Made by a program: the position numbers and the translations under genes. Under the pieces are notes generated by a model. It made no database searches. It worked only from the letters and a program-made list of their open reading frames with translations, and had not been told where the DNA came from. A stretch of DNA of 64,000 nt from the NCBI RefSeq assembly GCF_003841505.1, contig NZ_REGA01000001.1:310001-374000 (forward strand). The letters are read 5' to 3'. Origin of the DNA: Natrarchaeobius chitinivorans. GTDB taxonomy: Archaea; Halobacteriota; Halobacteria; Halobacteriales; Natrialbaceae. Position 1 is the first letter of the stretch. Each line of letters starts with the position of its first letter. Below, piece by piece: positions 61,439-63,973 of the stretch.

Positions 61439-62443
61439 ATGTCTGGGCACCAGACGACTGGTCGGACCGACCACCACCCACTTCGGTGCGATCACTGTGG
61501 CTACCCGATCCCGGACGAACCGATATCGACCGACGGCGGCCGGTTCTGTTCGACCAGCTGTACTGAAGCCACGGAGAGCGGTTCGACGCTGTCCGATCTC
61601 GAGGGGTACAAACGCGTCCCGTCGGGTGTCGAACCGATCGATTCGCTCGTTCCGAACGGAATGCCCGCGGACGCGTTCGTGCTCGTCTCCGGCGAGGAAG
61701 GGACTCGACGGAGCGAGTTGCTGACCGAACTCGCCTGGCGTGCCCTCGAGCGCGGTGAGTCCATCGCCGTCGTCTCCTACGCCAATCCGCCGACGGCGAC
61801 GCTCGAGCGCTTCTTCGAGAACGACTGGAACGTCGTTCCTGCCCTCGAAGACGGGCGGGTTCGGATTCTCGACTGTTTCACTCACAGACTCGCCGACCGC
61901 GAGGGCTTTCTCGAGGCGCGAAACGAGTGGACCGAGTTCGTCTCTGACGCCGCCGGAGACGCCATCGTCGACGTGAGCGATCCGGGCGACGTCAGGGAAG
62001 TTGCGAACACGCTGCTCGGGACGCTCGAGGATCTCGAGATGACCGAGACGGGACTCGTGGTGATCGACTCGCTCGACGAACTCGACGCGCTCGTCCAGGA
62101 CCAGTTAGTCCACAACTTCCTCAAAGACGTCCGGGCGACCGTCTGCAAGGCCCGGTACGTCCCGATCTTCGCCGGCGTATCGGCGACGGGCAACGAGAGC
62201 GTGCCGGACGACGAATACGTCGTCGACGGCATCGTCGACCTCCGTCTGGCGGATCACCTCGAGCCGGAGGCGCGTCTCTCACAGCTTGCTGTTCGGAAAC
62301 TGATCGGGGCCCGATTTCTGCCACAGTGGATCACCGTCGAGTACGAACCGGCCCGCGGGCTGATCGCATCGGTACCGCCAGCGGATACCGCACGGACACC
62401 CGTTGTCGATGGCGAACCGTCCCAATACGGAAGCCGACGGTAG
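61439..62443 (+). CDS. RAD55/KaiC-like ATPase-fold protein with zinc-ribbon and degenerate P-loop
   Basis: A 334-residue protein. Residues 16-40 are a zinc ribbon (LRCDHCGYPIPDEP then RFCSTSC). Residues 60-300 form a RecA-like domain, in which the P-loop reads LVSGEEGTRRSELLTELAW: the GKT/S of Walker A is replaced by TRRSE, so ATP binding is doubtful. Walker B-like LVVIDSLDEL is kept near residue 205. Comparable haloarchaeal RAD55-like proteins are of unknown role, perhaps regulatory. Confidence 0.8.
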   Translation: MSGHQTTGRTDHHPLRCDHCGYPIPDEPISTDGGRFCSTSCTEATESGSTLSDLEGYKRVPSGVEPIDSLVPNGMPADAFVLVSGEEGTRRSELLTELAWRALERGESIAVVSYANPPTATLERFFENDWNVVPALEDGRVRILDCFTHRLADREGFLEARNEWTEFVSDAAGDAIVDVSDPGDVREVANTLLGTLEDLEMTETGLVVIDSLDELDALVQDQLVHNFLKDVRATVCKARYVPIFAGVSATGNESVPDDEYVVDGIVDLRLADHLEPEARLSQLAVRKLIGARFLPQWITVEYEPARGLIASVPPADTARTPVVDGEPSQYGSRR

Positions 62444-62554
62444 GTGCGGCTCTCGGCTACCGAGCACGCTCACTCACGCTCTGGATTTAACTATCCGTTT
62501 GGCATAGGCCGCCTCGCAGCGATTCGAGCGCCTACTACAGCGGACGACCTTACT

Positions 62555-63973
62555 ATGACTGACAGAAACGAAAACCGGCGGAGGCACGAACGGAGAACCG
62601 AACGTCAGACGTCCGGCGGGGAACGCGACGGGCGACATCGAGGCCCGTCTGAAGACCAGCATCGACAGGAACGTCGCGGTGAAAGCGGTTTCGACGGGAG
62701 ACAGAGCCGAGAGCGACGGGAAGCCGGTTCCGAGCGACGCGACCAGGACCGGCAACGAAGCGGGTTCGAGACCGACGCTCGAGAGATGGCAAACCTCGAG
62801 TACGGCGGGGAAGCTCGACAGGACAGACCGCGAGACGACAGCGGGCAGCAATTCCGAGAGGAGCGCGGTCGACGATCCCAGGAACACCGACAGGAACGGC
62901 CTCATCAGTCCCGCGAGACGAGTTCGCAGGACCGACACCGCGGCGGACACGATAGACAGGAACGCGGCGGGGAACGACACGTCGACTCGCCGCAGTACGA
63001 AACGGCCGGACGACGCGACCAGTTCGACGCGGGAGTCCGACCCGAAGAGTCCGATCAGTACCGCCAGGAGCACCGAGACGAGCAGATGCGGGGCAAACGA
63101 CGGGGGCAGGGACGGCGAGACGAACAGGGATGGGATCGACGAGAGGGGGGACAATCGGAACGCCGCCAACAACAGGGCGATCGAGGAGGCCAACAGCGAC
63201 GGACTCGAGGCGAATCCGAACACCACGGACGGCAGCAACGAGGCGAACGCGGACAGCAGCCGCGAGGTGAACGCGGACGGCAGCAACGAGGTGAACGCGG
63301 ACAGCAGCCGCGAGGTGAACGCGGACATCAGCAACGAGGCGGAAATCACCGCGAAGTGCGCGAACGAGGGCAACGAGAGGGGCAAGGACAACGGCGACGG
63401 GAAGGACGCGGCCAACACCGAGAAGATCCTCAGCACGGCCAGCAGTTTCGCAGCCAGCCTCGAGACCAGGGGCACGATAGAGGGAAGTTCGAGGGATTCG
63501 AACAGGGACAACCGCCATACGGCCGTCACCAGCGGAGTCAGGGGTATCAGGACCACGGCCAGAGTCGACGAGGATCGCACGAAGGAGAGCAACGCGGTCG
63601 CCAGGAACGAGGACGACAGCAGCGAGGCCAGGATCCACAACAACGAGGCTTGGACCAGCAGCAACGAGGACAGGGTCGGCAGCAGCGAGGACAGGATCGA
63701 CGGCGACAGGACGACCGGTCCCAACGCGGTCGTCGAGAGGACTACGCTCGAGGCGAGCGCCACGGCGGCGGACAGAGACACCACCAGGGCGAGCGCCGGG
63801 CCGAACATGGTGACTGGACCGAAGGAGACGATCGCGCCGGACGACGACCCGACACGGGCAGGGATCGAGAGAGCGACGAGGAGATGAGCAACCGACGCCA
63901 CGTTCACGACCGAGACGACTACGCCGGCGAAGAACGTCGGCGAGACGACGACGTCCGCCACGACCACTACTAA
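62555..63973 (+). CDS. Arg/Gln/Gly-rich disordered protein (RGG-like)
   Basis: A 472-residue protein from the ATG at 62555, without hydrophobic stretches. Arg makes up about a quarter of the residues, with Gln, Gly, Glu, Asp and His providing most of the rest. The core (about residues 200-260) consists of 8-residue units such as RGERGQQP and RGERGRQQ, and a later part has RGQDPQQRGLDQQQRG. The DNA encodes them in tandem. The plus frame is preferred to overlapping frames because its codons follow haloarchaeal preference and the tandem units keep the 3-base phase. It resembles eukaryotic RGG-box proteins in composition only; RNA binding and phase separation are inference. Confidence 0.6.
   Translation: MTDRNENRRRHERRTERQTSGGERDGRHRGPSEDQHRQERRGESGFDGRQSRERREAGSERRDQDRQRSGFETDAREMANLEYGGEARQDRPRDDSGQQFREERGRRSQEHRQERPHQSRETSSQDRHRGGHDRQERGGERHVDSPQYETAGRRDQFDAGVRPEESDQYRQEHRDEQMRGKRRGQGRRDEQGWDRREGGQSERRQQQGDRGGQQRRTRGESEHHGRQQRGERGQQPRGERGRQQRGERGQQPRGERGHQQRGGNHREVRERGQREGQGQRRREGRGQHREDPQHGQQFRSQPRDQGHDRGKFEGFEQGQPPYGRHQRSQGYQDHGQSRRGSHEGEQRGRQERGRQQRGQDPQQRGLDQQQRGQGRQQRGQDRRRQDDRSQRGRREDYARGERHGGGQRHHQGERRAEHGDWTEGDDRAGRRPDTGRDRESDEEMSNRRHVHDRDDYAGEERRRDDDVRHDHY

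Follow-up and report, generated by a model that had tools for sequence, protein, structure and literature searches.

An Arg/Gln/Gly-rich, apparently disordered protein with conserved motifs: a patchily distributed family in haloarchaea

The window, that is the whole stretch of DNA analysed here, comprises 64,000 nucleotides of Natrarchaeobius chitinivorans (contig NZ_REGA01000001.1, positions 310,001 to 374,000), and close to its right end a KaiC-like gene is followed on the same strand by an open frame for a protein of very unusual composition. The features at this locus are as follows.

61439–62443, plus strand: KaiC-like gene (Pfam KaiC) with an N-terminal Cys cluster; a frequent, non-obligatory neighbour
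62475–62508, plus strand: promoter-like element CACGCTCTGGATTTAACTATCCGTTTGGCATAGG, with a TATA-like box at about 62485–62493; conserved in orthologue upstreams
62555–63973, plus strand: Arg/Gln/Gly-rich gene for a probably disordered protein (472 aa plus stop), from open frame, dN/dS and conserved motifs
62555–62584, plus strand: motif M1 at the N-terminus, MTDRNENRRR (family MNDRYDSDRR; M[NT]DRxDxDRR), from orthologue comparison
62756–62827, plus strand: motif M3, RSGFETDAREMANLEYGGEARQDR, from a 24-column profile found in 46 of 125 family genomes
63226–63341, plus strand: 24/48-bp tandem repeat encoding RGERG[QHR] octads, a lineage-specific filler, from repeat analysis and family comparison
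63521–63544, plus strand: motif M4, GRHQRSQG, from orthologue comparison
63797–63823, plus strand: motif M5, RAEHGDWTE (family GGGLEY..RRSEQGDWTE), from orthologue comparison
63866–63916, plus strand: motif M6, RESDEEMSNRRHVHDRD, from orthologue comparison

The Arg/Gln-rich gene begins at an ATG (62555) that is conserved in the family and ends with a TAA stop at 63973; the mechanical ORF call starts further upstream, at a GTG (62444). The 472-aa product contains 24.4 % R, 15.5 % G, 14.8 % Q, 11.7 % E and 9.1 % D, and D and E together (20.8 %) nearly offset the Arg residues, leaving a net charge of only +19 (+0.04 per residue). A, V, L, I, M and C make up 4.4 % of the protein, which has no Ile or Cys and two Lys; aromatic residues account for 3.6 %, GRAVY is −2.6 and the pI is 10.9. 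The preliminary description of this DNA had noted that Arg forms about a quarter of the residues and that hydrophobic residues are few, and both statements are borne out by these figures. It had also placed the protein against the acidic trend of halophiles. Acidic proteins are the expectation for haloarchaea, and six other genes in the window encode products of pI 4.1–5.5, so that this contrast is real despite the near-balanced charge. The Arg/Gln-rich composition is kept across 40 family members, which are homologues of the kind that the preliminary description had suggested looking for; their charged fraction is 0.29–0.52 and their net charge per residue −0.02 to +0.12 (mean +0.03), and they are thus near-neutral polyampholytes rather than polycations. 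CGA supplies 47 % of the Arg codons in the window gene and 14–32 % in relatives, and since this bias is unmatched there we claim no function at the codon level.

Several other long frames overlap 62555–63973, as had been pointed out earlier, and these, together with the tandem repeats, could suggest that the ORF is spurious, lying in a repetitive T-poor stretch, or that another overlapping frame is the true gene. The overlap is a by-product of T scarcity: only 6.7 % of coding-strand positions are T, and any stop on either strand requires a T on the coding strand. When the KaiC-like gene directly upstream was used as a synteny anchor for finding orthologues, a first survey located an Arg/Gln/Gly-rich ORF directly 3′ of it, on the same strand, in 10 of the 11 genomes that have a close orthologue of the KaiC-like gene (the window's own included); in G028, the eleventh, a broken remnant is left, which ends in DEDLSNRRHVHDEDE. 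This frame is open in all ten syntenic orthologues, which settles the earlier doubt as to its conservation in relatives, whereas the +1, +2 and most antisense frames gather stops. In 15 close orthologue pairs dN/dS is 0.18–0.41 and third codon positions vary most. The alternative frames are ruled out as the gene by the stops in relatives, and a spurious ORF is extremely improbable for a frame that is conserved, carries motifs and shows purifying selection; judged by these comparisons, 62555–63973 is a genuine, conserved gene under such selection.

Searches with the whole protein returned a single homologue among 100 related genomes and none among plasmids, because low complexity masks the motifs, and synteny and motif profiles were therefore required. 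With the 24-column profile, M3 was found in 46 of the 125 genomes of Natrialbaceae, the family to which the window's genome belongs, and some additional members have no recognizable M3. It is missing in three congeners of the window's genome; in the congener G002 a MNDRNEDRRHERGTDG fragment remains near a DUF123 fragment, and broken or truncated copies of the gene occur in further genomes. This patchy presence and the decayed copies mark the gene as accessory, and it seems dispensable in some lineages. Sequence searches of Pfam, NCBIfam, PHROGs and PDB gave no useful match, and no profile match places the protein among LEA, collagen or other Pfam, NCBIfam or PHROGs families; among ten members, a single one gives a weak match to Pfam Collagen that reflects composition (E-value, 0.006). 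Literature searches on Arg-rich or disordered haloarchaeal proteins gave no description of such a family, and haloarchaea go unmentioned in the main text of a 2024 survey of low-complexity domains across life (PMC11132505). On the sequences compared, this is an undescribed, single-copy protein family, so far seen only in haloarchaea; in our judgement disordered low-complexity proteins that carry motifs are a known kind in general, while this family is new and its setting unusual.

The family is built of six conserved words (M1–M6) amid unconserved filler. The window protein has the motifs and spacers that define membership (M1 and M3–M6 with R/Q/G-rich linkers), although its M5 is partial, being only the terminal part of the family GGGLEY....RRSEQGDWTE; the family motif M2 (RGWLxGLFSRG) is missing from it. 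M3 has the consensus GFETDA....NLEYGGEAR (FxTxA..NLEYGGEAR) and occurs in one to three copies per protein, and M6, near the C-terminus, has the family consensus D.DMSNRRHVHERDP, which includes the word SNRRHVH. The motifs make up 13.5 % of the residues yet hold 70 % of the Leu, 41 % of the Trp and 36 % of the Phe, whereas Gln is 19 % in the linkers and 5 % in the motifs. The tandem octads of RGERGQQP type that figured in the preliminary description are present, as the 24/48-bp repeat at 63226–63341, but they are not a conserved feature; other lineages have different filler repeats. AlphaFold modelling with 14 sequences as input gave a mean pLDDT of 43 and no secondary structure, and predicts an apparently unfolded protein, although the low pLDDT may partly stem from the thin alignment of a low-complexity sequence.

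A disordered, very hydrophilic protein of this sort might be a protectant like the hydrophilins and LEA proteins, accumulating in soluble form on drying or a change in salinity and shielding macromolecules without specific partners. Hydrophilins are defined by a Gly content above 6 % and a hydrophilicity index above 1 (PMC7448490), and the window protein, with its 15.5 % Gly and GRAVY of −2.6, has this composition, as well as the predicted disorder; the family ranges are 8–21 % Gly and −2.6 to −2.2. This compositional definition is very broad, however, and the protein departs from hydrophilins and LEA proteins in being Arg/Gln-rich, in lacking any LEA profile match, Pfam included, and in its sequence-specific conserved motifs. 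RRHVH and LEYGGEAR stay fixed while the filler varies, and since a bulk protectant needs no such motifs we consider this role unlikely.

The preliminary description had called the protein RGG-like and compared it to condensate-forming eukaryotic RNA-binding proteins with RGG. The RGG label is not borne out: there are no RGG boxes, RGG itself occurring four times where composition predicts 2.7. RG dipeptides are enriched, at 30 against 17.8 expected (z 3.6), and the comparison as a whole has only partial support. An RGG box consists of di- or tri-RGG with units 0–4 residues apart (PMC9957100), and by this measure the window protein, like 35 of 40 members, never exceeds an RGG run of one. RG-type runs (di-RG/tri-RG) are found, with nine RG at gaps of ≤4 residues in the window protein and 2–9 in the family. 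Such runs, the abundance of Arg and the mean pI of 10.5 over 40 members could indicate an RNA- or DNA-binding protein of RG type, acting like eukaryotic RG/RGG proteins; RGG/GAR-box proteins such as fibrillarin and the hnRNPs are likewise disordered, Arg/Gly-rich chains in which RG dipeptides abound. Against this, RG runs are shorter than five in 37 of 40 members, net charge is near neutral, one member has a pI of 6.1, and profile searches with the family found no folded RNA-binding domain. The window protein also differs from the RGG/GAR-box proteins in being a Gln- and Glu/Asp-rich polyampholyte with conserved motifs of its own, here in haloarchaea only, and we regard an RG-type binding function as rather improbable.

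Between the KaiC-like gene and the ATG lies the promoter-like element, the putative own promoter of the Arg/Gln-rich gene. Its consensus 5′ of the conserved ATG in orthologues is CACGCTC-GG-TTTAW...CGTTCGG..TAG, and the core CGCTC-N2-5-TTTAW (or TTAAW) is present in 29 of 43 orthologue upstreams and in 0.1 % of shuffles, a control that disregards relatedness, so that the count overstates independence. The form ACGCTCNGGNTTTA has a single occurrence in the 4.57-Mb genome from which the window comes. A close KaiC-like gene is found in 34 of the 46 genomes with M3 and in 18 of the other 79 (125 Natrialbaceae genomes), the named genomes that have this KaiC-like gene belonging to Natrinema, Haloterrigena, Halopiger, Natronorubrum, Natribaculum, Natronolimnohabitans and others, all Natrialbaceae; put the other way, M3 is present in 34 of 52 genomes with the KaiC-like gene and in 12 of 73 without it (Fisher P, 2.6e-8, phylogeny ignored). 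This co-occurrence of adjacent genes on one strand might make the Arg/Gln-rich protein a dedicated partner or regulator of the KaiC-like protein, but 12 genomes carry the motif-bearing gene without a close KaiC-like orthologue, the promoter-like element, which is also found at loci that have no KaiC-like gene, separates the two genes, and we think such a dedicated role very doubtful. At its N-terminus the KaiC-like protein carries a CxxC...CxxxC cluster, and GEEGTRRS (family GDEGTRRS) forms its nucleotide-binding loop in place of the GxxGxGKT/S of KaiC; all 11 close orthologues have RR instead of GK, and this may be an inactive ATPase-like protein. In G028 (L041, minus strand) the KaiC-like frame runs upstream into a His/Gln/Arg-rich stretch, HQRQHQHHHQHQRGRRYQHQHHH..., which could either belong to the gene or reflect an ORF that was called too long.

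Our preferred reading, offered tentatively, is that the window protein is a member of a disordered motif-and-spacer family and acts as a multivalent docking scaffold, possibly a condensate-forming one, with its own promoter. Hydrophobic-enriched words, one of them duplicated, set in fast-evolving filler of fixed composition are the pattern expected of such a scaffold. The long polyampholyte linkers of R/Q/G/E, whose composition is conserved and whose sequence is not, would space the short linear motifs apart; at the motifs (the FETDA..LEYGGEAR repeats, GLEY..GDWTE and NRRHVH) one or more structured partners would dock; and the Arg/Gln/Gly filler would maintain solubility and mutual attraction of the chain at molar KCl, a condition that screens simple charge effects. 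The multivalent scaffold, which might form condensates, would be expressed from its own promoter and be dispensable in some lineages. In proposing this we infer expression, docking, scaffolding, condensation and partner identity. Arg and Gln can still stack and hydrogen-bond at molar KCl while charge attraction is screened, which makes self-association plausible, although near-zero net charge and 3.6 % aromatic residues do not alone predict that it is strong. No obligatory neighbour, as a candidate partner, was found among the KaiC-like, DUF123 and CMD genes.

The M3 word extends beyond the Natrialbaceae. A DNA pattern for LxYGGEA was matched in 33 of 392 genomes of the order against one reversed-control match; of the four matches beyond the window's family, three fall in Q/G/R-rich low-complexity proteins, and a profile search picked out eight genomes with such proteins in a second haloarchaeal family. 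Several of these distant proteins end in GTWSEEGLRYGGEARHDHDPSHVGSE, by which a GDWTE-like word (GTWSEE) directly precedes LxYGGEAR in some members, and profile comparison backs the shared word (probability 95 % over 13 columns). The distant Q/R/H-rich proteins (L136, L178, L179 and L190–L193) thus resemble the window family in joining a low-complexity Q/G/R chain to LxYGGEAR, but reach 35 % Gln, and in several the motif lies near the C-terminus. Their neighbourhoods have no partner gene in common with the window locus and gave no match to the promoter element. We lean towards distant homology over convergence on a short motif. A LEYGGEA match in frame L146, of different composition, and FLEYGGEAR after the HTH region of an IclR-like regulator in the window's own genome (G000:C10; L176:2696-3460) were both taken as chance. 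At L136:5427-8372 and L178:4783-7728 a large ORF, apparently a sensor or regulator with an HTH end, lies tail-to-tail with the Q-rich gene.

It is possible, though doubtful, that these proteins form a new archaeal class of condensates or scaffolds for molar salt, found in at least two haloarchaeal families and organizing ribonucleoprotein or enzyme assemblies. If so, Arg/Gln-rich chains with hydrophobic-enriched docking words would act where electrostatic coacervation is screened. A conserved, Arg-rich and almost Lys-free disordered family that has short linear motifs and a promoter-like element of its own suggests that selection keeps a non-acidic design for soluble disordered proteins at molar salt, and it would be a natural system for asking whether, and by what means, proteins assemble or condense once charge attraction is screened.

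The usual order 3′ of the gene in relatives is a DUF123 protein and a CMD-family protein (L036:6934-8016 and matching loci), then a convergent large ORF taken from its sequence as glutamate synthase. The window locus shows neither the DUF123 nor the CMD gene, and no DUF123 match was found in its genome. Just beyond the window end, at G000:C1:374085-374200 (L033:8085-8200), ATACGGTTTACTG is accompanied by inverted and direct near-copies (CAGTAAACCGTAT, ATACGGTTTGCT); the Arg/Gln-rich gene lies on one side of these and the convergent large ORF on the other.
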